Program-made: the position numbers and the translations under genes
Notes under the pieces: model-generated
What the model was told of the DNA's origin: nothing
What the model saw: only the letters and a program-made list of their open reading frames with translations
Databases searched by the model: none
In this document: piece by piece, positions 14,194 to 64,000 of the stretch
Position numbering within the stretch: the stretch's first letter is position 1
Layout of the letters: each line of letters opens with the position of its first letter
Assembly: GCF_036785885.1 (NCBI RefSeq)
Contig: NC_092323.1
Coordinates: forward strand, 4,876,501-4,940,500
DNA from: Coffea arabica
Lineage: Eukaryota > Streptophyta > Magnoliopsida > Gentianales > Rubiaceae
DNA: 64,000 nt
Direction of reading: 5' to 3'

Positions 14194-15126
14194 TCAAAGA
14201 TCTTTATCTTTGACTGCGTCCAAATTGTTGTCAGCCTCTTTCCCATTCATCGAGGAATGCAGATTCTCACATTCAACGCCGACGGCCTGTTTTTTTCTTC
14301 TCGTCCGCAGATGCGTTTTCACGTAGAAATTCAACGACAGCAAAAGAATTGCCCCGTTCAGCACCGAATTGAATGTCCACGCGTTCATTCCGTTACAGCC
14401 ACCCTTTATTAGGTGCAGCAGAAGCACCCCGATGTGGCACGCCAGATTGCACCCCAACAAAACCATCTGACAGTTCACCACGAAGGGGAAACACGCGCTC
14501 GGCAGCCCAATTGCGGTCCAGAATCTGTACCCGTAGACCACGGCGTATATGGAAGTCGTCAGCAGGATGGCCAGGACTTGGAACGATTGAGAGAATTCCA
14601 GCCACAAAAATGACGCGAAGATTAGGATGGAGTGGTTGAATATTTGGAAGACGGAGAGTTTTCTGCGCCGGAGGATTGTGAAACAGGTGCGGAGGCTGTG
14701 GAGGAAGCGGGAGAGGTAGTAAATGTAGGACCAGAAGAAGACGCGGCCCGAGGGGCGCGTGCCCAGAGGGAAGCAAAGCAGCCACTGGAAAGTGGTGGTT
14801 TTGGAGCGGCGCCAGAACCAACGGGTGTCGCGGATCTCGGCGGCGGTGGAGAGGAGGATCCCGGAGAAGATGGTGGCGGAGATGAGGGCCATGGAGAGGG
14901 AATGGAGGGCCGGGAGGGGCCCCAGAGGGAGGGGTCGGTGGTGGTTGCGGCGGAAAATCAGGATGTTGAGGAGGAGGTGGAGGAAGACGGAGAAAACCAC
15001 GTAAGCGGCGATGGAGGTGAAGAGGAAGGACCAGGTGGATCCCCACAACTCCGTGTTGCTCCACCGGAATTTAACGATTGAAGGATGTTCCGACAGATAA
15101 TATCTTACGTTCTGAATCAGAGTCAT
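14194..15126 (-). CDS. ELO-family very-long-chain fatty-acid elongase-like protein
   Basis: An intronless gene for 310 residues resembling the plant branch of the ELO (GNS1/SUR4) family. ELO enzymes condense malonyl-CoA with acyl-CoA in the ER. The N-terminal stretch (SEHPSIVKFRWS, 12-23) followed by WGSTWSFLFTS is typical of plant ELO-like proteins, and the chain has about seven hydrophobic segments. The catalytic signatures are altered. Where the family has KxxExxDT, this protein reads SRFLHSLRT (139-147), replacing the acidic residues. The HxxHH box is QIFNH (161-165), keeping one His. The downstream region (YAVVYGYRFWTAIG, 194-207) aligns well, so this is not a frameshift. The tail is basic and then polar. 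I infer a divergent, perhaps non-catalytic ELO member. The antisense open frames over it are composition shadows. Confidence 0.82.
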   Translation of the reverse strand: MTLIQNVRYYLSEHPSIVKFRWSNTELWGSTWSFLFTSIAAYVVFSVFLHLLLNILIFRRNHHRPLPLGPLPALHSLSMALISATIFSGILLSTAAEIRDTRWFWRRSKTTTFQWLLCFPLGTRPSGRVFFWSYIYYLSRFLHSLRTCFTILRRRKLSVFQIFNHSILIFASFLWLEFSQSFQVLAILLTTSIYAVVYGYRFWTAIGLPSACFPFVVNCQMVLLGCNLACHIGVLLLHLIKGGCNGMNAWTFNSVLNGAILLLSLNFYVKTHLRTRRKKQAVGVECENLHSSMNGKEADNNLDAVKDKDL

Positions 15127-15130
15127 CGTT

Positions 15131-25594: not shown

Positions 25595-26247
25595 AAAGTA
25601 TTAGTTACGCCTCTGAAATTTGTTTTCTGTTTAAGGAAGCGGGTCAACGGCCGCCGTCTCCGTCGCGTTTTATCTTTCAGCAGGGGACGGTCGAAGCCGA
25701 GCCATTAATATCGCCTTTCCGACTTTCCTCATCTCCACCCCAATTTAGGTAATTTTTCTTAATTTTCTGTGGATCTTTCAACTTTTGTATATGCAGTCCT
25801 TTTGAAATCATTTTGTTTTTGTTTCGTTATCTGTTCTGTCTCATGCTTTGGTGAATAAGGGCTCGAATTTTAAGGGTTGGTTAAGGATTTAGGGTTTGTT
25901 ATGACATCTTGTTATTCATCGAATTGAAGCGTTCTCAAATTACAAATCCTTACTCGATTTTAGAAATTGGCGTGTATATCATTTGCAGGTTATGGGCTTT
26001 AGGTTAATGAGGAGTTGGGTAGAATTACAGGATGTGGTCGCTGACTTTGATCCTCAATTGTGTACCAGTTACATTGCTTCTCAATTAGTAAATTTTTTTT
26101 TTTTTTGCCTCTTTGGTGTTTTTGGCAGTTTAGGATGCTTTTTGCTATTGGCAATTATATTCGTTGGCTTTAATCAAGGTTGTTCATTTCGTCTTCAGTT
26201 CAATCCGACTATTAGTTGCTGTTTGAATTGGTGGTTTATGGTTTTTG
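25595..26247 (+). promoter_or_regulatory. promoter and 5' UTR region of the RING gene, probable leader intron
   Basis: A C/G-rich block at 25648-25748 looks like a transcribed leader. It ends with TTTAG|GTAATT (donor near 25749), and TTTGCAG at 25982-25988 is a possible acceptor. This suggests a 5' UTR intron before the ATG. The exact acceptor is uncertain. Confidence 0.35.
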
Positions 26248-26952
26248 ATGGCAAGTGATATTGGGAAATCTGCTACTGCTACTATGCCTGCTGGGACCGA
26301 GAACCTTTCTTCTTCAGGAACTGGTGATGGGGATGCTAGTGATTTTGAATGCAACATTTGCTTTGATATAGCTCAGGATCCCATCGTCACCCTTTGCGGT
26401 CACTTGTACTGTTGGCCTTGTCTCTTTAGATGGTTGCGCCACCACTCGCACTCACATGAGTGCCCTGTTTGTAAGGCCCTGATACAGGAGGAGAAGTTAG
26501 TTCCTCTGTACGGGCGAGGAAGGACTGCGACTGATCCTAGGTCAAAACCTGTCCCTGGTGTAGAAATTCCTGATCGACCTGCAGGGCAGAGACCCCAGAC
26601 AGCTCCTCCTCCTCATCCTCATCCCGATTCAGCTAACTTTCCGAATTTTGGTTTGGGGCTTGCTGGAGGATTTCTACCGGTGATGACTGCAGGGTTTGGT
26701 AACTTTTCCATGTTGGCTGGTTTTGGTGGGATTTTGCCGTCGATGTTCAGCTTTCAGATTCACGGATTTCCAACCGCACCTGTATATGGCACGGGTTCAG
26801 GATATCCACATACTTATCCTGGCGGTTATTATCATGGTGCTAATGTTCCCAGAGCTCCAATGACTCCTCAAGGTTCACAGGCTGAAGATAACAAGCTACT
26901 GATCCTTCTCCTTATAATTCTCAGTCTGGTTGTTCTTTCCTTCATATGGTGA
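26248..26952 (+). CDS. tail-anchored RING-type E3 ubiquitin ligase (RMA/RNF185 type)
   Basis: A single coding exon of 234 residues. I start at ATG 26248; the codon before it is TTG. A C3HC4 RING finger occupies 35-75, with all eight ligands visible (Cys35, Cys38, Cys50, His52, Cys55, Cys58, Cys72, Cys75). After it comes a Pro- and Gly-rich middle, and a hydrophobic segment at the extreme C-terminus (217-234, LLILLLIILSLVVLSFIW) that would anchor it as a tail-anchored ER protein. This layout matches the RMA/RNF5/RNF185 ligases, which ubiquitinate membrane and secretory-pathway proteins in ER quality control. Length fits the family. No defect is visible. Plant homologues include the RMA1H1-like proteins. 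Confidence 0.9.
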   Translation: MASDIGKSATATMPAGTENLSSSGTGDGDASDFECNICFDIAQDPIVTLCGHLYCWPCLFRWLRHHSHSHECPVCKALIQEEKLVPLYGRGRTATDPRSKPVPGVEIPDRPAGQRPQTAPPPHPHPDSANFPNFGLGLAGGFLPVMTAGFGNFSMLAGFGGILPSMFSFQIHGFPTAPVYGTGSGYPHTYPGGYYHGANVPRAPMTPQGSQAEDNKLLILLLIILSLVVLSFIW

Positions 26953-32417: not shown

Positions 32418-35193
32418 TCTAAGACCGAGCGAGTGTTTCGGGCAAGGACAGCGTATAAGGCTTTGCACCCGGTCAAGCATCTTCTTTGGCGAAGATTTTT
32501 TTACTATTTCGAGCATATTAATGGTAAAGCGAAGCCATCACAAGGTTGAAAAGGCAAACATGTCGCAATTGGGACGGCCTTTTTCACCAGTTTCTAGTTC
32601 AGCAGTCTATTCATTCAAATTTCCGATCGATGGAGCTTTCATTATCTTCATCTACGCTCGGCCCACATGGCTCCTGAGAGCAAGCAGTCGGGTGGGTGTG
32701 TGGCAATTTTCCAGTCGTGATTGCAGTCTGCAATTAAGTCTTCAGCGTAAATTATTGGCCAAAACAACAGAAAGGAGAGAGAGATAGACACACACACCCC
32801 GAATAAACTGGAACTGAATAACCAAGAAGATGAAGGTCCTTAGTCCTTACCCCCGGCTTAAAAAATATATATATATATATGAAAAAAAAGCAAGAATGTG
32901 CCAGCAAACTAGTGGAGTAAAGGCCTTTTTTTTTTTTAATAACCATTAGGTCACTGGGATAAGCCTATTGATCAGAAGAGAACTTTTAGAATTCTTTAAT
33001 TCAGGGTTCGAATCCTATACATGATAATTAGGGATGAGAAAGGTGTGAAGAGGGGTGAAAAGGCAAAAAATAAAAAAAAAATGAAAAAAAGAGGTCCTTG
33101 CTGGCTCGTTGTTGTAGTTGTCCTATATTTTGTATTATGTAACCGTTTACTTGCAACAACAGTTAAATTTAATGGATTCAGATTTTAATATATCCAAGTC
33201 GTTTGATAATAAAAAATTGAACCTTTGAATTAATTAAGTGACACTGAATTTTCTAGACAAAACTTGTTCCCAAAATTAAGTGATAAATTATACACTTATC
33301 ACTTGAACGTGATATGCACTCAAATGTATTAAATTTAATATTTAACAATTCAATAACTTAATGGATTTAAACCTCGGGTTTCATACTTCAATTTTATCAA
33401 ATGCATCCTAAATCTTTATACACAAGTTTGAGCAATTAATAAGTAAATTTGGCTGAAAAGTTCTTACATCATCTGTCAGTGCTTCGTTTTAAAACTGATG
33501 ATTGAGTTCAAGTTTTGTGAAATGTGATCGTAGACGTAGAGGGTTTTAGAAGATCCAGTAATGATGGTGGTAGGCATATATGCCTGCGTGAATTATTATG
33601 AATTGACGATGGCCTGGAGACACGGGCTCGAAAGTAGGCTCCGGAATTTAATGTTGCACTTACTATACGGAACAAAATAAGCGATGAATCAGTTGCAATG
33701 CTCACTAACTTGTCCTTGTTTTATCAGTTGGGATTTGAGTTTTCCTTTCAAGTTAAACCAGCAATGTGGGTCTGCTTTCTCCGTACATCTTTTCTGTTGC
33801 ACCTTAGTTTGGACTCCTTGAATCTGCCACCTGTTATCGGTAGAAGACTCACATGTAGTTACTCAGATTATCTCTCATCTTTTCTTCTCTGTCTTCCTTT
33901 TTTTTTTTTTTTTTTTTGTTGGGGTTAAATTTTTCGTTCAGTTGGGTGAATTTCTGATCCTATATAAGGTTGTTGTCAGCATAATTTGTTCCTAAGCTAA
34001 TGCCGCAACGATTTAGCTTAGGGATGCTCCGCAAATATCCAGCTGAAATGTTACACAGAAGACGTGACAGATCTGCTAGAACCGTCCACGACGTGGATGG
34101 CTCAACCAAATGAAATAGAGGAATTAGGAGAGCCAGAATTGGAGCATAGCGGTATTTTAATTAGAAAGTAGCATACTTACGTTGCCATGCCAGGTCCCCG
34201 GAGCAAAAGTTGACAACAACCTGCCAGTACCATTGAATTCCTTTCCACCAAAAAAAAAAAAAAAAGGGTGAATCCCTAGTATTGTTTTGATTGAATCTTT
34301 CAAATATGAATGAGAAGTTTAACACCTAATCTTTACTTGTCCATAGTTCACCAACTTTTTTCACTTTTACAATTTTTTCCTATTACCCTCCTACTCCTCC
34401 CCATATCTTTCCTATTTCCAATCGTCGTCACGTTCAGGATTTAAACACTGAACCTGATAATGAAGAGAATTCTAAGAGCACTCCTTTGGCCACGGAGGTT
34501 ATCTCAGTAGTTCAGTGATCAGCGGAGAACTCTCAGAGTACTTATGCTGCCAAGTTCAAGCGAGTCTAATAGTTGGGGGTGGGAGTTAAAAAAAGAGAGA
34601 GAAATTTTCACTTGACATTAGGTACTTCTTTTTTAATGTCAATTTACCTTTTTATTCTTTTTTAAAAGACTTAGAGCAGTTTTAGAACTTTTTTCTTTTT
34701 GGGCTTTACTTAAGTACAAATTATGAAAGACAGGATGATTTTGTTTGTCAACTTTGTACGCTAAATTTCCGTCGCTGGGGACGACAATGGAACTGGAAAG
34801 ATTCACTCTCCTTGGACTTTACCTCACCCAGCAAAACTACAGAGGTATTCTCTGTACTCTATAGTAGTCTGTAGCGTCAATCTAGTCATCCTCCAAATTT
34901 TACTCAAATATCATCGAATCGACTGACATCAAAAGAGGGTCACATTATTAATTACGCTCAAAGTTGCTGCTGCTTAAATATCACACATTGAACTCAGAAA
35001 TTCTATTAACTCCACGGCTTTGGGCAATAACTAGTGAAGGACAGACAGAAAGGAAATAATAAGAGAGAAACACACAACCGGACTTCCAACACAAAGAAAA
35101 GAGAGAGAGAGTCTTCCTCTCTCCACTCTCCCCTTCTCATCATCTTCTTTTTCCCATAATTCATTCCGTCGCCACTTGTATTTGCTCCATACG
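32418..35193. other. intergenic, upstream of GATL
   Basis: No supportable gene. At 33194-33408 a decayed Tourist-like element has ends CAAGTCGTTTGATAA and, reversed, TAGGATGCATTTGATAA. T- and A-tracts occur at 33899-33917 and 34250-34265. The 35090-35150 region is CT/GA-rich and suits the GATL 5' leader. Confidence 0.45.
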
Positions 35194-36252
35194 ATGTCAA
35201 GATTTTCTTCATCAGTTAGCCCTGTCAAGATTATTTCTCTCCTCCTGTGGTTCATCTCTACTGCTCCGACCGCTATCAATGCAACTACCAAAATCAACCA
35301 CCTACAATTCAAGTTCAGAGAAGCACCACAATTCTACAACTCTCATGCTTGCCATCACCTAAGCTACACCGCCTGCTCAGATAATGCAGTGCACGTAGCC
35401 ATGACCCTGGATGTAGCCTACCTCAGGGGATCAATGGCTGTGATTCTCTCGGTTCTTCAGCACACTTCTTGCCCGGAAAACGTAATCTTCCATTTTGTTG
35501 CTTCCGCTTCCGCAGATATTAGCCACCTGAACCTCACTATAGCCGAGTCATTTCCGTATCTTAGCTTCACAATCTATCCCTTCGATGATTCGGCCGTGGC
35601 AGGATTAATATCAACCTCAATCCGGGCTGCTTTGGATTGCCCTTTAAACTATGCGCGTAACTACCTGGCCGATCTCCTTCCTTCGTGCGTTGGAAGAGTA
35701 GTTTATCTGGATTCTGATTTAGTCCTGGTCGATGACATTGCAAAACTAGTTGCCACTCCGTTAGGTGTTCGAGCAGTTTTAGCTGCACCTGAGTATTGCA
35801 ATGCCAACTTCACCTCCTACTTTACGCCTACGTTTTGGTCCAACCCTTCACTTTCTTTAACGTTTGCCAATCGTAAACCTTGCTACTTCAACACGGGAGT
35901 GATGGTGATTGACGTGGAGAGATGGAGAGCTGGAGATTACACCACAAAGATAATAGAGTGGATGGAGCTCCAGAAGAGAATGAGAATCTATGAATTAGGT
36001 TCTTTGCCTCCTTTTTTGCTTGTTTTCGCCGGAAACATAGCCCCCGTGGATCATAGATGGAACCAACATGGTCTTGGAGGAGATAATTTTAGGGGCCTAT
36101 GCCGGGATTTACATCCTGGCCCGGTTAGCCTACTGCATTGGAGCGGAAAGGGGAAGCCATGGGCTCGACTGGATGCCAACCGGCCATGTCCTCTTGATGC
36201 CCTTTGGGCACCTTATGATCTCTTGCAAACGCCATTTCTTCTTGAATCTTGA
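35194..36252 (+). CDS. GATL: galacturonosyltransferase-like protein (GATL, GT8 family)
   Basis: An intronless gene for 352 residues; GATL genes are usually intronless and of this length. I start at ATG 35194, because the in-frame codon 18 bases earlier is TTG. A hydrophobic N-terminus (about 11-30) acts as signal peptide or Golgi anchor. The GT8 catalytic domain follows: [13 protein letters not shown] (151-163), the metal-binding DxD as [10 protein letters not shown] (171-180), [10 protein letters not shown] (231-240), [10 protein letters not shown] (271-280) and HWSGKGKPW (315-323). Key residues for UDP-sugar and Mn2+ binding are all present. GATL proteins work in the Golgi on pectin and related wall polysaccharides; the donor sugar differs among members and cannot be read here. 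No break is visible. Confidence 0.92.
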
Positions 36253-48431: not shown

Positions 48432-50218
48432 GCCACTACTGCACTCGACGTTGAAGTTGAAAGGGCCTCAGCAGCTGGAAGTTCTGTCTTTTAACTCTGT
48501 AAGCCTGTTCCAATTGGGCTTCGTCAACTTTATTGGACTGCAACACCCTTTGAATTTCAGGAGGCCCACCGTTATTATCCCGCTGGAAAAATATATGTAT
48601 TTTATCTTCACACAAGCCCTTTATTTATTATTGAGGTAAATGATCCGTAATTGCAAGTGCAAATTTCATTTAAAAAAAAAAAAAAAAAGAAGCGTATGTT
48701 GAAGTAATTTGGCAGGTTGGGGTGGGAAGAATTGGGTCAAGGAAAATCAATCAGCTTGTTGGCTAGCAGAACAAGTTTGCCTCGTTGTTAAGCAAAATAT
48801 TAGTAAACAAATCGCCACATGATCGATTTGTTATTACACCAGCTACATATATTTCATATCACAATTTAAGCTCAAAGGTAGAAGGAGGAGGAGCCAACGT
48901 TTTAATCCAGAATGAATAGAGATAACAATTGCGCCACCACCACAATAATAAAGAGAAATGCAATTGTATTGCATCATCGACTTTGGAATGGAGTGCTGCT
49001 GATGTCAATCAATTGGCAATTGGCTATTTGGCTATTTGGCAATTTGGCATGGTCGGTTCCTTCCGCCCAACCAATCCATGTCACGGGTGAGGTGACGAAG
49101 CTGAAAAAACACACGCGCACACAAACGTGAAACAGTGCGTTCTTTTAATTTGTTAGTCTTATTGTTAGTATTATTAGTTTTGGTATGTTTTTTTTTTTTT
49201 TTTTTTTTTTATGGTGAGTGCATTCTTCACGGAAGCTGCTACCCAGGACCGTGTTAGGCAATGTTACATTGGCCTTTAATTTAATTAAAGCTCCCCAAAG
49301 CCACAAAGCCCATGTAATGTAAGTGCTGGTAGTTTGGTTGCAAATTGTTTTTTCTCACTTTGGCTGACCAAAAGTAAATTTGTAATCCAACCGCGCTCGT
49401 AAAATCTTTAGAAATTCAAGTATCAGTTTGTCAATATGAATTCAAGTACGCTTTCGCAATTTGCTGTTAATTTATTTCTTAATAATCGCCGGCCATAATG
49501 ATTTGATATTTAATAGTTGACGATTTTCACCAAAAGTCAATATAAACTACCACCAAACATTAACATCATGGTCGTCTCTTTTCTTTCTTTCTTTTTGGTT
49601 TGCGTTTTTTGGGGGTTAGAAAAATTCAGCCACTATACTTTCAAGAGATGAACACGAACGTCAAATTAACAAATGCAGCCAAACTGTCTGCATGTGTACG
49701 TCTTATGCCCAATATGAAATTAGAAATGGAGAAACTAATAATTTTTGAAGTGGTAGTATTAAAGCTTCCCGTTTAGATTCGTTAGGGAGCAAACCTCATA
49801 GATAGATACCCATGAAAAAGAATGCTTTTATTCCACGCCTCTGTACGTTGGCTGGGGGCAAGCATAATACTATGCCAACAACTAAAAGTTTTAGCGTCAA
49901 TTCTTTCGGGCCCGAAGGAAGCTGCCATGCAGGTTCCTCCCACCAAAACTTCACGTAATCAATCACTAATGACTAAACTAACTCCCCTTCGCAGTTCAAG
50001 CTCAACACCACCTCTCTTCTTCTAACTTCCCCCGGACATGTATCAAACAAGCTACTAGTTTATTCCTTTGCTCCGCCCTTCCCCAGTAAAAATTTAAAAA
50101 ATTCGCACTCTTGCAAACCACTCTATAAAGTGTAACGAGTAATTCGTCTCCTTCAGACCCTTTTTCGTTATCAATTATCAATCCGTCCCCCTAATAAAAT
50201 TTCAGCATCAAAATCAAT
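48432..50218. other. intergenic between divergent genes
   Basis: Holds the promoters of the minus-strand Rossmann-fold gene and the plus-strand CML gene. T- and A-tracts occur near 48671-48688 and 49189-49210. No further gene is supported. Confidence 0.5.
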
Positions 50219-50806
50219 ATGGAACCCGAAAGAGTTCCCAAATCTTTTGGTTGTCTTCCGCACCGAAATCTCAAGTTGAGCTTAAGCCGGTCCAGATCCA
50301 AGTCTGCCTCCAGCTCGACCTCCAGCCCAAGAACTCCCAAATCACCCTCCGTCACCCCACGCAAAAGCACCAGTTCCAGTACGCAGTCCAAGGAAGACGA
50401 GTATCGAGAAGTTTTTCGCCGTTTCGACAACGACAACGATGGAAGAATCTCAGCAGTGGAGTTGAGGGCTTATTTTGGTTCGGTGGGAGAGTACATGTCC
50501 CACGAGGATGCTGAAACCGTGATCCGTGATGCGGACACCGATGGAGACAGCCTCATCGACTTTCAAGATTTTCTGAGGTTGATGAAGAAGGAAGGTTCAG
50601 AGGATGAGGACTTGAAGGCGGCCTTCGAAATGTTTGAATTCCAGAAAGGGTCTGGGAGGATAACGCCCAAGAGCTTGCAGAAAGTATTGAGTCGCTTAGG
50701 GGATGCCAAATCCTACGACGAGTGTGTTGAAATGATCGAAGTTCATGACACTGATGGCAAGGGCGAACTCCATTTTCAGGAGTTCCAGCAAATGATGATG
50801 GCTTAA
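50219..50806 (+). CDS. CML: calmodulin-like Ca2+-binding protein (CML)
   Basis: An intronless gene for 195 residues. A 57-residue Ser/Lys/Arg/Pro-rich leader precedes the EF-hand region, resembling the extended CML41-type proteins. Four EF-hand positions are visible. EF1 loop 70-81 (DNDNDGRISAVE) is complete. EF2 loop 106-117 (DTDGDSLIDFQD) has Asp at position 12 and Ser in place of the usual Gly. EF3 (141-152, FQKGSGRITPKS) lacks the acidic ligands and should not bind Ca2+. EF4 loop 177-188 (DTDGKGELHFQE) keeps positions 1, 3 and 12. So two to three sites are expected to bind. CMLs are Ca2+ sensors that bind target proteins. Targets and location (basic leader: plastid or other) are not readable. 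Confidence 0.9.
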   Translation: MEPERVPKSFGCLPHRNLKLSLSRSRSKSASSSTSSPRTPKSPSVTPRKSTSSSTQSKEDEYREVFRRFDNDNDGRISAVELRAYFGSVGEYMSHEDAETVIRDADTDGDSLIDFQDFLRLMKKEGSEDEDLKAAFEMFEFQKGSGRITPKSLQKVLSRLGDAKSYDECVEMIEVHDTDGKGELHFQEFQQMMMA

Positions 50807-53119: not shown

Positions 53120-54394
53120 GCTTGAATCAAATCAATCGATAACTTTAAAAAGAAAGATAGATCCTCAATTCATCTACAGTCCTACTCCTCGTTTCTCCGT
53201 CTCATTGTGGGAATGCAGAATTACAGAGCGGATCCTCAATTCTATTGGATGACGCTACTATGATATTCGCCGGGCCTTTGAACTCGAACGTTATTCCGCT
53301 TTGGACTTTGCTGGCGGGAAGTTGGCGGCCGGGAGGGGCGGGGGTCGGTGATAACTAGCAAGTAGCAGCCAACCCTGTCCAAAGCCGCGATGAGTTGGTC
53401 AAACTTTGACCTGGTCGTTTTCCGACTTTCTCGGATCATGAATTAGTTCATCTTTTTTGTGTTACATACTTGTTCCTTTTATGAATCTCGTTGTGGACGG
53501 CACAACCAAAGATGGAAAAGCGAGAAATATGTAAGATCACATTTGTACCACGAGGGCTCAAGCCCGTGAAAAGAATTATTTGTTCAAATAATTTGGACAG
53601 TGAACTTATCTCAAATAATATTTCGCTTGTATCATAAACACATTTTTCAATTTATTTTTTTATATTTTCAACCAACTTTTTATCTTACATACGTCACATC
53701 ACAAAAAAATGCTACATTAATTATTCCAAATAATACCCTATTCAAACAAACCCGGACAGTGCAACGCTTCCTATTTGATTGATGGGTTAATAATAATAGA
53801 CCATACACATGTATTATAATGAACGTACAAATTTTCCTTTTATCAAAGTGTTGGCATTGGTATGATACAATTGATGCTTCCATGCATCAATTAGTTATAG
53901 AAATTCTCCTTTTTGTGTTTCTTAAAATTTCAACGCAAAAAAAAATTAATTAGACCGGTTACATCCCAAACCCCAAAAACCCAAAAATAAAATTTTTAAA
54001 AAAATTTTTCTTTGAATGAATGGAGTCAATGGAGCAGCTGTTCATTTATAAGGCTTGCTCACACATGGCCAACGAAATTGATAGGACTCCGTTTTAGTTG
54101 GCGGGCGGTGGACCTGCTACTCTTCATAATTTTTAAAATTGGATCAAATTCGCGGAAACTCAGAAAACCTTTCAAGTCAAAGAAACTCCCAAAGCCAACT
54201 ATGGAGGGGGAGACGATCAGAATTGATGCTTTTGGACTGCGTCTTCTTTCTTACTTTCTAGAGATAAGCCAATTCTGTGCGCGTTCCGCCGCCTCCCTCC
54301 CCAAAAAACAAATACTCTCATAATACGCTGACCGCATCACATTTCTCAGACGCAAAATTTTTGCGCCAGTAATAGTTGGAACCTGTGATGAAAT
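53120..54394. other. intergenic and promoter of the LysM receptor gene
   Basis: At about 53576-53752 a decayed MITE has ends with CAAATAATTTGGA and ATTATTTGGAATAA. The open frame at 54012-54323 has no family resemblance and lies in the likely promoter. Confidence 0.4.
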
Positions 54395-56329
54395 ATGGAT
54401 CGTTTGCATCTTCATTTGGCTCTTTTCATCTTTCTAATCTGTAACTGTTCTTTGATCGAATCCCAGCAGCCGTACATCGGAAAGGCCACAAACAGATGCG
54501 ACAGCGCCGATAATTCCACATCTGTTCTGGGCTATAGTTGCAATGGCGTGACCCAAAGTTGCCAAGCCTATCTCACCTTCAGATCTCTACCACCTTTCAA
54601 CTCCGTTTCTTCCATCTCATCCCTCTTAGCAGCTGATCCATCCCACCTCTCCCAGCTCAACAAAGTTTCTCAAGACGCAACATTCGAGACTAACAGGACC
54701 GTGCTTGTTCCCGTCAACTGCTCCTGTTCAGGTTCGCACTATCAATTCAACACATCTTACGTTATTCAGCACGGCAACACCTACTTCTCAATTGCCAATA
54801 GCACTTTCCAAGGCTTGTCCACCTGTCAAGCTCTACAAGCACAAAATGCCAATCTTAGTACTGGGAACTTGATTGTGGGTACCAGGATTAGAGTTCCGCT
54901 AAGATGTGCTTGCCCGACTAAGAATCAAGCCGACGACGGCGTCAAATATCTGTTGAGTTATTTAGTCACTTGGGGTCAATACGTTTCTGCGATTAGCTCA
55001 ATGTTTGGAGTGGATACTGGGAAAACTCTCCAAGCCAATGGATTGTCTGAACAAAATTTTAATATTTATCCCTTTACGACTCTCTTAGTTCCGCTTCAGA
55101 ACTCGCCATCCAGTTCCCAAACTGTGGAGCCGCCTCCGCCACCGTCGCAGCAGTCACCGCCAACTTTAATTGCCCCTCCTCCAAACAGTAGCTCAAGAAA
55201 AACCTGGGTATATGCTCTCGTTGGAACTCTTGGCGGGTTAGCTCTAATAGCCGTATTTGGGCTGCTTATATTCTGGTTTCGTTTTGCTAAAAGAAAGAAG
55301 AAAGAAAAGGATTCATTTATTGCATCAGAAAGCTTTGAATCAATCGAGAAACCACTCGAGAAGAGGAAGAAGTTGGAGGAAGAAGACATGTCTCAGAATT
55401 TCTGGGATAGTTTACCTAGTTTTGCTCATTCTCTTCAACTATACACCTATGAAGAAATTAAATTGGCAACACAGAATTTTAGTCCTAGTAGTTTGATTGG
55501 TGGATCGGTTTACCGTGGTACGATCAAAGGGGATTATGCTGCCGTTAAGAAAATGAGCGGAGATGTGTCTGAGGAAATTAATCTACTGAACAAGATCAGC
55601 CATTTGAATCTTATCCGGCTTTCCGGGGTTTGTTTCAGCGATGGGTATTGGTATCTTGTTTACGAGTATGCTGCCAATGGAGCATTGAGTGATTGGCTCT
55701 ATGAAAACCAGGGCACACAAAAGAAAAAGTGTTTGGATTGGAAGCAGAGATTACAGATTTGCTTGGATGTGGCCACGGGGCTTAATTATCTTCATAGCTA
55801 CACTTCCCCTCCCCACGTGCACAAAAATCTAAAAAGCAGCAATGTTCTTCTTGATGCTGATTTCAGGGCGAAGATCAGTAATTTTGGGCTAGCAAGATCA
55901 GCAGATGGGCAAGGAGGCCAGTTTGCCTTGACCAGGCACATTATTGGGACGAAAGGTTTCATGGCTCCTGAGTATTTGGAGAATGGTCTGGTATCCACAA
56001 TGCTTGATGTTTATTCATTTGGGGTTCTCCTGCTGGAGATTTTCACTGGCAAAGAAGTCGCTGTCTTGTATGAAGCTGTGAATGTGAACTTGGCAGAGAT
56101 TCTGAGCCCTGTGCTTGACGAGAAAGACGGGATCGAGAACTTGAGCCAGATCATGGATTCTTCTCTCGGAGGAAATTATCCTTCCGAACTTGCAATTTTG
56201 CTCATCAGATTGATTGCTAGTTGCTTAAAGAAAGATCCATCTGCCCGCCCAACCATGCATGAGATTGTCCAGACTCTGTCCACATCCGTCACTGCCACAA
56301 CATCTTGGCATTCCAAACAAAGTGCCTAA
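54395..56329 (+). CDS. LysM receptor-like pseudokinase (LYK4/LYK5 type)
   Basis: An intronless gene for 644 residues. Order: signal peptide (1-23), ectodomain with CxC pairs at 109-111 (CSC) and 171-173 (CAC) that separate three LysM modules, a Pro-rich stalk (244-264), a membrane helix (about 271-294), a basic juxtamembrane region, then a kinase fold (about 350-635). The kinase is clearly atypical: the Gly-rich loop is reduced to IGGSVYRG (368-375), the HRD motif is HKN (476-478) and DFG is NFG (496-498). VAIK survives as AAVKK (382-386) and APE is present (524-526). Loss of the catalytic Asp and metal-binding Asp marks a pseudokinase. LYK4/LYK5-type proteins bind chitin oligomers and signal through an active partner such as CERK1 at the plasma membrane; some members act in symbiosis. 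Chitin binding here is inferred. Confidence 0.92.
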   Translation: MDRLHLHLALFIFLICNCSLIESQQPYIGKATNRCDSADNSTSVLGYSCNGVTQSCQAYLTFRSLPPFNSVSSISSLLAADPSHLSQLNKVSQDATFETNRTVLVPVNCSCSGSHYQFNTSYVIQHGNTYFSIANSTFQGLSTCQALQAQNANLSTGNLIVGTRIRVPLRCACPTKNQADDGVKYLLSYLVTWGQYVSAISSMFGVDTGKTLQANGLSEQNFNIYPFTTLLVPLQNSPSSSQTVEPPPPPSQQSPPTLIAPPPNSSSRKTWVYALVGTLGGLALIAVFGLLIFWFRFAKRKKKEKDSFIASESFESIEKPLEKRKKLEEEDMSQNFWDSLPSFAHSLQLYTYEEIKLATQNFSPSSLIGGSVYRGTIKGDYAAVKKMSGDVSEEINLLNKISHLNLIRLSGVCFSDGYWYLVYEYAANGALSDWLYENQGTQKKKCLDWKQRLQICLDVATGLNYLHSYTSPPHVHKNLKSSNVLLDADFRAKISNFGLARSADGQGGQFALTRHIIGTKGFMAPEYLENGLVSTMLDVYSFGVLLLEIFTGKEVAVLYEAVNVNLAEILSPVLDEKDGIENLSQIMDSSLGGNYPSELAILLIRLIASCLKKDPSARPTMHEIVQTLSTSVTATTSWHSKQSA

Positions 56330-57848: not shown

Positions 57849-58250
57849 TGATGCGACTGCTGAAGTGAAGGTCCGACCTGACCGGGTGCCTAGGGAGCGA
57901 GCGGAGTCGTCCGACCTGCGCGCGGGCGAGCTGCGGGGCTGGGTCCCCTGTAGCAACTCCGACGATCAAGTCAGAGGAAGATTTGTAAGTGAAAGAGTAG
58001 AGATTGTGCTATGAATAGCGTACCTTGTGTTTTCCCCCACGCATGGTATTTATAGAGTCACAGGTAGTAGTCTCCTAGTAGAACAGGGAGTCCTTATGGG
58101 AGCATAACTCTCCCTAGGGCTCCATAGCTTAGTTAGGGCGTGCTTGGGCTCTGCAGCCCGCGCGGCCCATCCAAGCCGACCTGCTGGGCCGGGAACCTCC
58201 TACCAGCCGAGCTTATGGGCCAGGCCGACGTGTTCGTGGGCCCCACTACA
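57849..58250 (-). repeat. 3' LTR of the Tat-type retrotransposon
   Basis: A 402-bp segment, TGATGC..ACTACA on the plus strand, so TG..CA at its ends in either reading. It is followed at 58251-58266 by a minus-strand purine tract. TATAAATA on the minus strand (58047-58054) is a candidate LTR promoter. Borders were set from the TG/CA ends and the purine tract, because the partner LTR is out of view. Confidence 0.7.
58047..58054 (-). promoter_or_regulatory. TATA box inside the LTR
   Basis: The plus-strand TATTTATA reads TATAAATA on the minus strand, in the middle of the LTR, as expected for a U3 promoter. Confidence 0.55.
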
Positions 58251-58266
58251 CTAGCCCCCCCTCAAG
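58251..58266 (-). other. polypurine tract before the 3' LTR
   Basis: The minus strand reads CTTGAGGGGGGGCTAG directly before the LTR start TGTAGT. It would prime plus-strand DNA synthesis. Confidence 0.6.
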
Positions 58267-58486: not shown

Positions 58487-58494
58487 TATAAATA
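58487..58494 (+). promoter_or_regulatory. TATA box of the antisense ORF
   Basis: TATAAATA on the plus strand, 192 bp before the ATG of the antisense ORF, followed by a pyrimidine-rich leader (58519-58600). It points away from the retrotransposon's own transcription. Confidence 0.6.
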
Positions 58495-58678
58495 GGGTCC
58501 TCCAAGCGTCATTTTCACTCTCCTCCTCTCATTTCTTCAGTTCGCTCCTTCACTCCCCAGTTCGCTGCTTCATTCCTTTCTCTTCAAGAACACATCGGGT
58601 CGCCCCGCCTTAAGAGCCCAGAGTCAGCCCGGGCAATCCTTAGATCATCCTTTCACCAGTAAGTCCCCCTTTCCTTTT

Positions 58679-60925
58679 ATGTCTTCTTACAGTTCGGATA
58701 GTTCTGACGTTACCAGTTCAGCCCATAGGCACAGAGCAGCCAGCCCCATACTCTTAGATAGCAGCTCTTCCGATTCCTTTAGCTCTTCTCCTTCTATTTC
58801 ATTTGGACCGAGACCAGTAGCCTCGCCTAACCTGTCCCCAGTTAGAGTAATGAGCCCAGCTGAGCGACCTGCCCAGCCTATAGTAGGAGCAGCCGAACAG
58901 GCTGCTCCGGATCAGATGGCAGCAGGGACCTCAGGGGCGCTGAGGGGCGACTTTGGAGAGGTCGACACTATTCCCCCAGCCCTGGCTCAAAAAGATGTTG
59001 ACGAGCTGGCGGAAAAATACGAAATTCCGGCCCAGTTCGAGCCCAGGGCCGCCCGTCCAGGGGAGGTCGCCAGCCGACCTCCCCCTGGCTTCGTGGCGAT
59101 CTACAGGGACCAACTGATGGCTGGCCTCCGTCTGCCCATCCCCAACTTCCTCTTCTTCATTCTTACCTTCTGGGGTATTCGCATAACCCAGGTCATCCCC
59201 AACGCTGTTCGCTCTATCATAGGCTTTTTCATCCTCTGCCGAGCACTCGAAATCCCTTTTTCTCTTGACCTATTTCGAGCCTTCTTCCAGATGAAGGTCA
59301 GCGGGAAGGTGCCTGGGTGGTTCTATTTCGCCCGACGAAGTGGAACGAAAACCTCCACCCGCGAGGTGTTTACGGGGGCACCTTCCTCCATCAAGGACTG
59401 GAAGCCTCAGTTCTTCTTTGTGAAGAACCTAGGTTTTCCTCCCCTTACCTGGAGAGCAGAGACTCAAGTCTCAGATCCCATTCCGTCCCCGCTCCCCGTG
59501 TCCGAGCTGAGCCGCCTACTCAGCTCGGACACGAAGCTGGACGTGAAGGAGTTCAGCAATGGCCAGCTTTGGGCGGCGGGGCTGATCCGAGCTAGCTCCT
59601 CGGATCCTTCCTTAGAGGATAGGCCACTCTCGACAGACGAGCTGGACGCCTGTAACTATCCTGCCCCTCCATCATCATCATTATATATATATATATTTTT
59701 TTTTTTTGAACCGCTGACCTCTTGGCCTTCTGTTTGTGCAGTGAAACGGTTTTCCTCACTTCTATCCATTGGCGGTAGCAGCAACTCGGGCGCCGCTACT
59801 CAGACTCCGTCGGCCATCCCAGCCAGCTCGGTGCCTGCTCCCGTACCTCAGCCAGCTCCCGCCCAATCCTCCAAGGCGGTTGAGGCTGGGAAGAAAAAGA
59901 AAAAGAAAACCACTGCTAAGAGAGCCAGGGTGGAAACGCCCTCGTCCCCAGCTCGGGAGGAGAGGCCAACACCCGAGCCCGCCCAAAGCGGCCACTACGG
60001 CGTGAACACCGTCGAAGAGCAAGCCCGCGCTGAAGCTCCTCCAAACCTGTGGCAACGCCAAAGCTCCCTGCTCTTCGACCCCCAGACGCAGCTGACGACG
60101 CACCAACACCCTATGCACTTCTGCCCCCAGTGGAAGCTATCCATAAACGACCGAGCTCAGTTCCCAGACGCAGCTCGGGAGCTTATCCAGGGCGCCATCC
60201 TTCCACGCGACTTCAACCTAGTCAAGACCATGGATTCGTCCGATCTCCTCAATTACTATTACACGGGAGCAGCACAGGTCGGTATTCTCCCATTTCTTTG
60301 CTATAGGTAGGAGGTTACTCTTGTCATGATTTTGACGCCTCCACACTTGTCCTGACAGATGAACGTGGTCGGGCCCGAACTGGCCAAGCGTTACGAGGGC
60401 CTGCTCCCCCTGCTGACTGAAACGAAGGCGGCCAACGAGAAGTTGCTCAGCCAGAACGCAGCAGCTGTGGCCGAAGCTGAAGGCCTGAAGAAGCAGCTCG
60501 CGCAAGTCCACACAAACTTCGAGCTAGAACTGAAGAAAAACGCCGATCTAACCTCACAGCTGAAAGAGGAACAGAAAAAGGCAGCTGGGTTGTCTGCTCA
60601 GGCAGAGGCAGCTAGGGCTGAGGGAAGCCAGGAGGGTGTGCGGACCTTCCTGAGGTCCGAGGAGTTCAGGGGCGACCTGGCCATCCTGAATACCCCCGTT
60701 CTGCAGCACGGGTATTCCCAGGCCCTGCAGGAAGTGCAGGGGCTAGGGCTACCCGGGTTTGACCTGGGAAACTTTCCCAGCTACAATCCCCTAGCTGTGG
60801 AGCAGCTCGACCGCCTGGTGGAGGGCTATATGCACGGGCGGAAGCTGGTCGACCTGGTTGCCGACCCCCTGCTGCCAGTGACCACTCCTGAATCCGAGCA
60901 GGAGGAGGAGGAGGGTGAAAACTAG
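58679..60925 (+). CDS. antisense ORF of the retrotransposon (putative gypsy-type transposon protein), with introns
   Basis: Read on the plus strand, opposite to pol. I propose three exons, 58679-59651, 59742-60277 and 60359-60925, joined in frame to 691 residues. The first intron (90 bp; GCCT|GTAACT to TTGTGCAG) contains an AT/T-tract which, if not removed, adds a run of Tyr, Ile and Phe to the protein. The second (81 bp; CACAG|GTCGGT to CTGACAG) contains a stop. The N-terminus is Ser-rich. The middle (about residues 145-310) resembles the plant 'putative gypsy type transposon' domain (FFILTFWGIRITQVIPNA, GWFYFARRSG, KDWKPQFFFVKNLGFPP). Then come a basic patch (KKKKKKTTAKRAR), a coiled coil (about 520-610) and an acidic C-terminus. 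The role of such proteins is unknown. Confidence 0.72.
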
Positions 60926-61192: not shown

Positions 61193-64000
61193 CTAACGAA
61201 AAATCCTCAGGTTGGAATTGTGCCAAGTACGAGGGACCTCTTCCCCGCTGAGGTGAGCTAACCTGCAGTATCCAGCACGGTCTGCTTCTTTCACCACATA
61301 GGGTCCTTCCCAATTTGGACCCAGCTTACCAGTGCCCTGAAGCCGACTTACGCTGTTCTTCCTCAGGACCAGGTCCCCTTGCTTAAAAGCCAGAGGCTTT
61401 ACCCTAGCATTGTAGTGTCGCGCGATCTGTCCCTTATACTTGGCCATGCGTATAGCTGCTTCTTCTCTCCTCCCTTCCAGCAAGTCCAGGTTAAGACGCA
61501 GCTCCTCTTCATTGTCCCGAGCTATGAAGTTCTGAACTCTGTTCGAAGGAACACCTATCTCCGCCGAGATCACCGCCTCCGCTCCATAGGTCAGCACGAA
61601 AGGAGTCTCCTGCGTAGCAGTTCGGGGAGTGGTTCGGTAAGCCCACAATATGGTCGGCAGTTCGTCCAACCACCCAGTTCGGGCGGACTCCATCCGTGTC
61701 TTTAAGCCGTGCAGTATGGTCCTGTTGACGTTTTCGACCTGGCCGTTTGCCTGAGGGTGGCCTACCGAGGTGAAGTGCTGCCGGATTCCGAGCTCCGTGC
61801 ACCAACCTTGAAGAGCAACGTCAGCGAACTGGCGTCCATTGTCCGAGACCAGGACATGGGGTATACCAAATCGGCAAACGATGTTTTTCCAGAGGAACTT
61901 CTGCACCGACCTGCTGCTAATGGTGATAAGGGGCTCGGCCTCCACCCATTTGGTGAAATAGTCTACAGCCACAACCACATGCTCATAGCCCCCTGGAGCT
62001 CGGGGAAATGGACCCAACAGGTCGATTCCCCATTGGAAAAAAGGCCAAGGGCTCTGAAGAGGGATCATCTCCTGAGTCGGGGCGTGATGGATCGGCGCAT
62101 GCAGCTGGCAGGACTTGCACCGAGTTACCAGCTCAGTCGAATCCAAGAATATGGTCGGCCAGTAGTAACCAGACAGCATTCCTTTCTTGGCCAAAACCCT
62201 CGGGCCGACGTGGTTTCCGCAGATGCCCTCGTGCAACTCACGCAGGATGTAGTTTCCCTCCTCCGGAGTAATGCACCTCAGCCACGGGCGTAGGTAGGAT
62301 TTCTTGTAAAGCACCCCATTTGAGAGCTCGTATCCCCGCGACCTGAGGAGGACCCTTCGCGCCTCCACCCGGTCTTGAGGGAGCTCTCCATTAGCTAAAT
62401 ACCGTATAATGGGATCCATCCATGAGCTCACTACTTGAATAACAGACAAGTCCACCTGGTCATACGCCCGATTTCTGACGACTTCCACCAAGACTTCTTT
62501 GTTCAGCGTGCCGACCGAGGTGGAAGCTAGCTTGGACAGAGCATCCGCCCTCTTATTTTGGCTCCGAGGGACCTGCTTGAGCGCGAATACTTTGAACTGG
62601 GCCCTTAGCTCATGCACTTTGGCGACGTACCTTCTTAGGGGCTCCTCCTTAACTTCGTAGCTTCCCCCTACCTGGTTGACTATCAGCTGTGAGTCGCTGT
62701 AGACTTCTATTGACTCGGCCCCCAACTTCCGAGCTATCACCATCCCTGCGACCAGGGCCTCATATTCGGACTCGTTGTTAGAGGCCCTGAAATCAAACCT
62801 CAGGGCGTAGGCCAACTCATCCCCCAGAGGGCTAGTCAGGAGGAGCCCGGCTCCGCATCCTTCCTTGCTTGACGATCCATCTACGAACAGGGTCCAGACT
62901 GGAATGATCTGATCAACTTCGCCAGTGGCCTGTTCGATCTCGACAGCCTCTTCGGCGTGTTCAGCCTCCGCTGCGTCTCCGATCTGTCCGGCCTGAGCTC
63001 CCTTTGTGGCCTGCCCGACCTTGACATGCCCCTCCGCCTGCTCGGCCTTGAAAGCCTTGGCGGCTCGCTCGACCTGGGCAGCTTTTTCGGCCTGCCTGGC
63101 CTCTGCCGTGCCTTGGGTCGTCCGGGATCGGGTCGTCTGCGCGGCCTCGACAGCTTCTCCGACCTGCTGGGCCTCGGCTGTGTCTCTGGTCCGCTTGGCC
63201 TGCGGCTCCGATTGTCCGAAGGAGACCCCTTCGGCTATAAAATCTGCCAATGCTTGGGCCTTAATGGCCGTGCGAGATTGGTAGCTGAGGTCGTATCCGG
63301 ACAGCTCCACGGCCCACCTCACCATTCTACCTGAGGCGTCAGGCCTTGAAAGAATTTGCTTGAGTGGCTGGTCGGTCATAACCACCACTGGGTGAGCTTG
63401 GAAATATGACCTGAGCTTCCGAGCCGCGTGAACTAACGCCAAGACATATCGCTCAATCGAGGTGTACCTTGTCTCCGCGCCCTGTAGAGCTCGGCTGACA
63501 TAGTATACAGGCTTCTGGACTTTTCCTTCGTCCCGAACTAGTACCGCACTGATCGCCTCCTCCCCTACTGCTAGATAGATAAATAAGGTTTCTCCATGCG
63601 CAGGAGAGGTCAAGGACGGCAATCGTGCGATGTGGGCTTTCAGCTCGTCAAACGCTTGCTGACACTCGGGGGTCCACTCGAACTGAGGGCCTCTTCGCAG
63701 GGCCCTGAAGAAAGGAAAACCCCGAACTGCAGATTTCGACAAGAACCTGTTCAATGCCGCCATCCTGCCAGCCAGCCTTTGAACCTCTTTTATGCTTCGG
63801 GGAGGAGCCATGTCCATGATGGCTTTTACCTTGTCGGGGTTAGCCCTTACTCCGTCTTTTGATATCATGTATCCAAGGAACTTGCCCGACCCGACCCCGA
63901 AGGTGCACTTCTTGGGATTTAGCCGCATCCGCGAGCTCCGTAGGACGTCAAAGATCTCCCTGAGGTCGTCGACGAACTGCTCCTGAGTTCGGCTTTTCAC
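61193..64000 (-). CDS. pol polyprotein of the retrotransposon (RT end, RNase H, second RNase H, integrase), partial
   Basis: 935 residues with no stop, entering from the right edge; the first visible codon is GTG and not a true start. Order: end of reverse transcriptase (NPKKCTFGV, GYMISKDGV, up to about residue 100), RT-linked RNase H (about 105-258, ending in ALADFIAE), an Ala/Glu/Gln-rich linker (about 260-363), and a second RNase H of the type with LFVDGS (Asp374), EYEAL (Glu413), YSDSQ (Asp436) and RADALS (Asp486). Integrase follows with zinc ligands His590, His597, Cys628, Cys631 and catalytic Asp660, Asp720 and Glu756. All key residues are present. The double RNase H is characteristic of Tat-lineage gypsy elements. 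The C-terminal end (KQGDLVLR.., WEGPYVV..) is the usual integrase tail. Confidence 0.93.
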   Translation of the reverse strand: MKSRTQEQFVDDLREIFDVLRSSRMRLNPKKCTFGVGSGKFLGYMISKDGVRANPDKVKAIMDMAPPRSIKEVQRLAGRMAALNRFLSKSAVRGFPFFRALRRGPQFEWTPECQQAFDELKAHIARLPSLTSPAHGETLFIYLAVGEEAISAVLVRDEGKVQKPVYYVSRALQGAETRYTSIERYVLALVHAARKLRSYFQAHPVVVMTDQPLKQILSRPDASGRMVRWAVELSGYDLSYQSRTAIKAQALADFIAEGVSFGQSEPQAKRTRDTAEAQQVGEAVEAAQTTRSRTTQGTAEARQAEKAAQVERAAKAFKAEQAEGHVKVGQATKGAQAGQIGDAAEAEHAEEAVEIEQATGEVDQIIPVWTLFVDGSSSKEGCGAGLLLTSPLGDELAYALRFDFRASNNESEYEALVAGMVIARKLGAESIEVYSDSQLIVNQVGGSYEVKEEPLRRYVAKVHELRAQFKVFALKQVPRSQNKRADALSKLASTSVGTLNKEVLVEVVRNRAYDQVDLSVIQVVSSWMDPIIRYLANGELPQDRVEARRVLLRSRGYELSNGVLYKKSYLRPWLRCITPEEGNYILRELHEGICGNHVGPRVLAKKGMLSGYYWPTIFLDSTELVTRCKSCQLHAPIHHAPTQEMIPLQSPWPFFQWGIDLLGPFPRAPGGYEHVVVAVDYFTKWVEAEPLITISSRSVQKFLWKNIVCRFGIPHVLVSDNGRQFADVALQGWCTELGIRQHFTSVGHPQANGQVENVNRTILHGLKTRMESARTGWLDELPTILWAYRTTPRTATQETPFVLTYGAEAVISAEIGVPSNRVQNFIARDNEEELRLNLDLLEGRREEAAIRMAKYKGQIARHYNARVKPLAFKQGDLVLRKNSVSRLQGTGKLGPNWEGPYVVKEADRAGYCRLAHLSGEEVPRTWHNSNLRIFR

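Follow-up and report, generated by a model that had tools for sequence, protein, structure and literature searches.

An antisense gene beside the 3' LTR

The window analysed here is a stretch of 64,000 nucleotides of the Coffea arabica genome (positions 4876501-4940500 of the contig), containing several host genes and part of a minus-strand LTR retrotransposon which runs out of its end. Between the pol region and the 3' LTR of this element lies a plus-strand gene, on the strand opposite to gag-pol, which starts with an ATG at 58679 and whose stop codon ends at 60925. Its three exons of 973, 536 and 567 nt join into 2076 nt, encoding 691 amino acids plus the stop. The features of the window are as follows:

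14197-15129, minus strand: host gene of the ELO family
26227-26949, plus strand: host gene for a RING finger protein
35038-36249, plus strand: host gene for a glycosyltransferase of family 8
50198-50803, plus strand: host gene for an EF-hand protein
57849-58250, minus strand: 3' LTR, 402 nt (alignment of the LTR pair)
58255-58262, minus strand: polypurine-tract-like stretch adjoining the 3' LTR (direct reading of the sequence; LTR end from the LTR pair alignment)
58487-58494, plus strand: TATA motif upstream of the antisense gene (direct reading; motif in 44 of 49 aligned copies)
58679-59651, plus strand: exon 1, 324 codons and 1 nt (translation; median dN/dS 0.15; 32 of 48 copies open)
59102-59296, plus strand: Transposase_28 (TRP28, PF04195) domain within exon 1, residues 142-206 (E 1.1e-12; 48.5 bits against a cut-off of 26.2)
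59652-59741, plus strand: intron 1, 90 nt, GT..AG, with a CTGAC branch-like motif about 29 nt from its 3' end (copy alignment; same site in the distant copies L068 and L069)
59742-60277, plus strand: exon 2 (translation; median dN/dS 0.10; 35 of 48 copies open)
59891-59929, plus strand: Lys/Arg-rich stretch in exon 2, resembling a nuclear localisation signal (direct reading; putative role)
60098-60432, plus strand: largest extent of a probable recombined patch of intron-bearing type, the smallest being 60172-60374, thus 203-335 bp (diagnostic sites)
60278-60358, plus strand: intron 2, 81 nt, GT..AG (direct reading; missing in 35 of 49 aligned copies, present in distant copies)
60359-60925, plus strand: exon 3, with a predicted C-terminal long helix, coiled-coil-like (translation; median dN/dS 0.11; 36 of 48 copies open; model of copy L028)
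61193-64000, minus strand: 3' part of pol of the same element, leaving the window, with the RT end, RNase H, a second RNase H and integrase (PF17919/PF17917, PF13456, PF17921, PF00665)

An ORF of 691 residues spread over two GT..AG introns had been proposed in the initial annotation, and every one of its coordinates is right at base level. As it also held, both introns keep the frame, each being a multiple of 3 in the window copy, and the raw frame (58496-60310) is stopped in intron 2, by a codon at 60308-60310. Intron 1 of this copy contains no in-frame stop, so that the frame would stay open if it were retained. The TATA box which the annotation placed at 58487 reads TATAAATA, and lies 188-228 nt ahead of the ATG in 43 of the 44 motif-bearing copies among the 49 aligned. 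Its location of the gene between pol and the 3' LTR of a minus-strand Tat-type element is borne out by the LTR pair and by the dual RNase H of pol, and its remark that antisense ORFs are known in the Tat lineage agrees with the literature, where antisense TRP28 ORFs are stated to be characteristic of Retand elements (Vicient 2025, PMC11963269).

The host element is an insertion of approximately 9.4 kb on the minus strand with both LTRs present, the partner LTR lying beyond the window at the equivalent of 66870-67271. The two LTRs are identical at 399 of 402 positions, with 3 mismatches and no gaps, and the 5-bp target duplication GGTAC is found outside the outer ends of both. This small divergence, along with the duplication, marks the insertion as young; a substitution rate of 1.3e-8 per site per year would place it roughly 0.3 million years ago. 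In pol, the order PF17917/PF17919, then PF13456, then PF17921 and PF00665 is that of a Ty3/gypsy element with a dual RNase H ahead of integrase, an arrangement reported across the Tat family (PMC9289625). The 2.94 kb between the end of the pol frame at 61193 and the inner end of the LTR at 58250, which hold the antisense TRP28 ORF, fall at the low edge of the 2,933-6,566 bp published for this region in Retand (PMC11963269). Judged by its sequence, the element is a Retand/Tat-type LTR retrotransposon, with Retand separated from other Tat groups by structure and with most of the RT outside the window. A LysM receptor-like kinase gene of the LYK4/5 type (54392-56326, plus strand) is located about 1.5 kb from the 3' LTR, and the putative antisense promoter points away from it.

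Introns and splice sites among the copies

Copies of the gene were sought in 1.198 Gb of genome sequence. One DNA search, in which 40 of 414 candidates were scored, a second in which 40 of 240 were scored, and the additional copy L055 gave 49 copies for alignment; L047 (truncated) and L056 and L066 (together one interrupted copy) are not part of this set. The last of these belongs to an intron-bearing copy (C22:54562300-54572000) that an insertion has apparently divided, close to the end of exon 2, into parts lying some 5.4 kb from each other. The aligned copies form three groups: N, 35 copies without intron 2; W, the three copies that include the window's; and I, 11 intron-bearing copies, one of them (L062) cut off within the intron.

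Intron 1 is common to the family. It begins with GT in 48 of the 49 aligned copies and ends with AG in 48, the sole copy with both borders mutated (AT..AA) being L060 (C3:53639570-53643878), in which all three exons are also broken. A branch-point-like YTRAY motif is found in 47 of the 49, located 17-55 nt from the 3' end and mostly at -28 or -29. The intron is 75-116 nt long; in 34 of the 49 copies this length is not divisible by 3, and exon 2 is still open in 35 of 48. The inner part of the intron is less conserved than exon 1: in the window and the intron-less copies, median aligned identity there is 66%, with gaps in 11 of 53 columns, against 85% and 0 of 973 columns for exon 1. An exon-1 protein search, which scored 123 of 1,322 candidates and reached families down to 56% identity, extends this picture. 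In 32 of 124 matches from which the intron 1 gap was estimated, 26 gaps were obtained, measuring 74-102 nt with 3 coding nt included.

In intron 2, GT..AG borders occur in 13 of the 14 intron-bearing copies, the fourteenth being the copy cut off inside the intron, and all 13 complete copies have a YTRAY motif, at -27 to -30 in ten and only at -12 in three. The distant copies L068 and L069, which are 46-56% identical to the intron-less copy L028 in exons 2-3, each have the two introns, bordered by GT..AG, at identical positions; L070 was left unscored for introns, as its similarity to exons 2-3 stops short of intron 2. Both copies thus keep the borders at a distance where about half of the residues have changed. 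The initial annotation had named conservation of splice sites and frame among related copies as a check, and the copies support its reading. For intron 1, borders, branch-like motif, TATA box and frame are conserved in the family; for intron 2, the same site is used in L068 and L069 while the intron is missing in 35 of the 49 copies.

On these signals both introns are, apparently, spliceosomal. For excision of intron 2 there is indirect evidence in the 35 of 49 copies from which it is gone to within 1-2 nt of its ends. In the sense genomic RNA they would be carried in reverse, which points to a separate antisense transcript. An antisense pre-mRNA would start downstream of the TATA box beside the 3' LTR, and removal of both introns would yield a protein with a TRP28 domain and a coiled coil that is probably located in the nucleus and probably has a regulatory role.

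Probable loss and regain of intron 2

In group N, intron 2 is missing to within 1-2 nt of both ends, while it is present in groups W and I (3 and 11 copies). Because most close copies are without the intron, a recent insertion was considered, and was overturned by the two distant copies and by matches split at the junction. From a protein search with intron-less exons 2-3 (111 of 1,395 candidates scored), 120 of 165 matches were examined: 36 span the intron 2 junction without a break, none of them below 80% identity. Split at the junction, with an implied gap of 69-101 nt, are 39 pairs of pieces, to which the window and the I copies contribute. The presence of the intron in distant copies and these split matches indicate, most simply, that intron 2 is ancestral and was lost in N.

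The clade of the window copy lies within N. W nests with the near-N copies L011-L018 with supports of 100, 99 and 94 in exons 1, 2 and 3, and N and W together form a clade with supports of 67 (exon 1, midpoint-rooted), 93 (exon 2, rooted) and 57 (exon 3). Exon 1 unites the I copies in one clade (support 100), although the rooted trees of exons 2 and 3 do not. All supports are ultrafast bootstrap values read after re-rooting; L062 was excluded from the trees, and L025, L064 and L065 from that of exon 3. At 114 sites separating near-N from I, W is of N type at 98, of I type at 13 and of neither at 3. Seven of the I-type sites are consecutive, running from 60172 to 60374 with sites of N type on both sides (60097 and 60433), and the other six are scattered outside this patch. 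So long a run was obtained once in 200,000 shuffles, and sliding identity reveals the same switch of type around intron 2. It is therefore most likely, as far as these alignments go, that the window copy regained intron 2 within a patch of 203-335 bp by recombination with an intron-bearing element. A search with intron 2 and its edges returned three intron-bearing loci outside W, which at 72-77% identity did not include the donor.

The manner of the loss may be approached from the junction and from the position of the intron. Most intron-less copies read CAG/GTGAAC, the slash marking the junction, whereas exact splicing of most of the sampled intron-bearing relatives would give CAG/ATGAAC, so that either a further substitution accompanied the loss or the intron was deleted with an offset of 1-2 nt. 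Intron loss mediated by mRNA favours the intron nearest the 3' end. Intron 2 holds this position in the antisense mRNA, which fits a loss through the copying of spliced antisense mRNA by reverse transcriptase. The regain could have followed from template switching to an intron-bearing element.

An ordinary deletion, by slippage or end joining between CAG repeats at the intron ends and with no part for spliced RNA, is a possible but rather doubtful alternative. CAG is indeed present at both ends of intron 2, a single event would suffice, and a deletion shifted by 1-2 nt would yield the observed CAGGTGAAC with no substitution. Such an event would not, however, readily account for both ends of the loss lying no more than 2 nt from the splice sites with the frame kept, nor for the loss of only that intron which mRNA-mediated loss would favour; moreover, exon 3 starts with A, G or C depending on the copy, which makes one substitution unremarkable. 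It is also conceivable, though improbable, that W never lost intron 2, and that several intron-less sublineages lost it in parallel or exchanged an intron-less patch among themselves by recombination. Recombination between families is evident here and patches could move in either direction, but the nesting of W with L011-L018 in all three exons would then call for about three or more losses or transfers, against one loss and one regain.

Loss by mRNA copying and regain by template switching belong to a wider proposal. Intron-based reporters of retrotransposition have been described (PMC12786077). The present introns would survive each round of retrotransposition, being reversed in the sense genomic RNA and thus unspliceable there. 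An antisense intron reads CT..AC in the sense genomic RNA and is unremovable from it, while the antisense mRNA is spliced. The balance tips slightly towards the Retand antisense gene being a natural counterpart of an antisense-intron retrotransposition cassette, in which an intron is now and then lost when spliced mRNA re-enters reverse transcription, and can be restored when templates are switched between families packaged together. If so, a gene with introns can travel on a retroelement over the long term thanks to its antisense orientation, and intron gain and loss within a mobile lineage record its recombination history.

The predicted spliced protein and its relation to known elements

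The copies also bear the mark of selection on the encoded protein. The median dN/dS values of 0.15, 0.10 and 0.11 for exons 1, 2 and 3 are taken over 481, 576 and 614 pairs respectively, restricted to pairs with dS above 0.05 and with L062 excluded. Exons 1, 2 and 3 are broken in 16, 13 and 12 of 48 copies, as expected for old copies. When frames were compared, using 400 random pairs for each exon, stops numbered 0.7-1.5 per 1000 codons in the exon frame and 16-66 in the other five frames (43-46 copies). The low dN/dS, the frame-specific scarcity of stops and the frame-breaking lengths of intron 1 together argue for selection on a spliced protein, and by these sequence measures all three exons are under purifying selection.

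The same evidence weighs against a role for the antisense RNA in place of the protein, for example through double-stranded RNA silencing the element. Such a role has been discussed for antisense transcripts of elements of this kind (PMC7264820) and the two roles may coexist, but as a sole explanation it is very unlikely, as dN/dS of 0.10-0.15, the scarcity of stops in one frame and introns which break the frame unless spliced all point to selection on a spliced protein. That the long plus-strand frame results from base composition or from a minus-strand gene, and that the introns are chance GT..AG pairs, is refuted: the apparent dN/dS of the minus-1 frame is low too (0.18-0.21), an expected effect of coinciding third positions, yet that frame holds 23-57 stops per 1000 codons, and the intron borders are kept in the distant relatives.

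In the protein itself, residues K51-K55 and K59-R62 of the Lys/Arg-rich stretch do not vary among the 19 sequences of alignment A2, which took 19 of 23 distinct open sequences; alignment A1 took 23 of 32, with exon 1 of the window replacing that of L048. A structure model of exons 2-3 of L028, a natural intron-less copy, predicts one long helix at residues 180-278, in agreement with the coiled-coil C-terminus of the initial annotation. The ten-residue blocks from 201 to 250 have mean pLDDT values of 94-96, the mean of the whole model being 55.5. The site of intron 2 coincides with the start of this helix (L028 residue 179/180), and retention of the intron would consequently yield a helix-less protein. 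The AlphaFold model of exon 1 is uninformative (mean pLDDT 34), and solved structures gave no match to exon 1. A PHROGs search returned nothing meaningful, and scans of IMG/VR with the exon-1 and exon-3 proteins, sensitive to close relatives only, found no relative. Matches to DUF7030 and Get5_bdg were dropped, their scores being under the respective cut-offs. Selection, the basic stretch and the long helix, taken with published statements on relatives, form the basis on which the protein is probably a nuclear regulator.

Overall, we estimate the probability at about 0.87 that this is an accessory gene of a Retand/Tat element, running counter to gag-pol, driven by a promoter of its own and interrupted by two spliceosomal introns. 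The sequences show how the gene is built, that its protein is under selection, that both introns are conserved, that one lineage lacks intron 2 and that the sequence type switches around this intron in W; it is from them that we infer transcription, splicing, the function of the protein, loss through mRNA copying and regain through template switching.

A number of parallels can be drawn with known systems. The TRP28 ORFs of Retand share with the window gene their position between pol and the 3' LTR, their antisense orientation, the TRP28 domain and a proposed DNA-related role (PMC11963269). That survey scored ORFs of at least 600 bp as single frames, whereas in the window gene three exons appear to be spliced into a single unit; the antisense ORFs listed separately for other clusters (TRP28, Smc-like) may be exons of one gene. 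The main text of that paper has no word beginning with "intron", and the same is true of PMC7264820; among the open-licence papers searched, no report of introns in Retand antisense TRP28 genes was found. The gene23 of maize Grande is likewise an antisense accessory gene between pol and the 3' LTR (PMC7264820). It is transcribed from its own upstream promoter and encodes a nuclear protein (PMC7264820), for which the possible counterparts in the window gene are sequence features, namely the TATA motif and the Lys/Arg stretch.

Ogre, a related large Ty3/gypsy element, also has a spliceosomal intron, but this one belongs to the sense RNA and is spliced out of a fraction of the transcripts only, while the introns described here are antisense and unspliceable from genomic RNA. 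In HTLV-1, a spliced antisense transcript of a retroelement arises from near or in the 3' LTR (PMC1459196), as is proposed here. The protein of its antisense gene, named HBZ (PMC11963269), is unrelated, and its transcripts start in the 3' LTR, whereas the TATA box of the window gene is just inside the internal region. An earlier review has called for possible antisense and spliced transcripts to be examined (PMC7264820). The conserved introns are an argument, from DNA alone, that the gene has long been expressed in evolution as a spliced antisense mRNA, and they define exact junctions, 59651/59742 and 60277/60359, which can be sought in RNA data already available. In its apparent loss and regain, intron 2 preserves traces of recombination between element families and perhaps also of antisense mRNA having been reverse transcribed.

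Annotation by ORF length underestimates or splits these antisense proteins. The length of intron 1 is a multiple of 3 in some intron-2-less copies, and ORF callers would there report an intron-free gene with a junk insert. In L011, L012, L015, L018, L035 and L036, all without intron 2, exons 1-3 form, together with intron 1, a single open frame of 717-786 amino acids.
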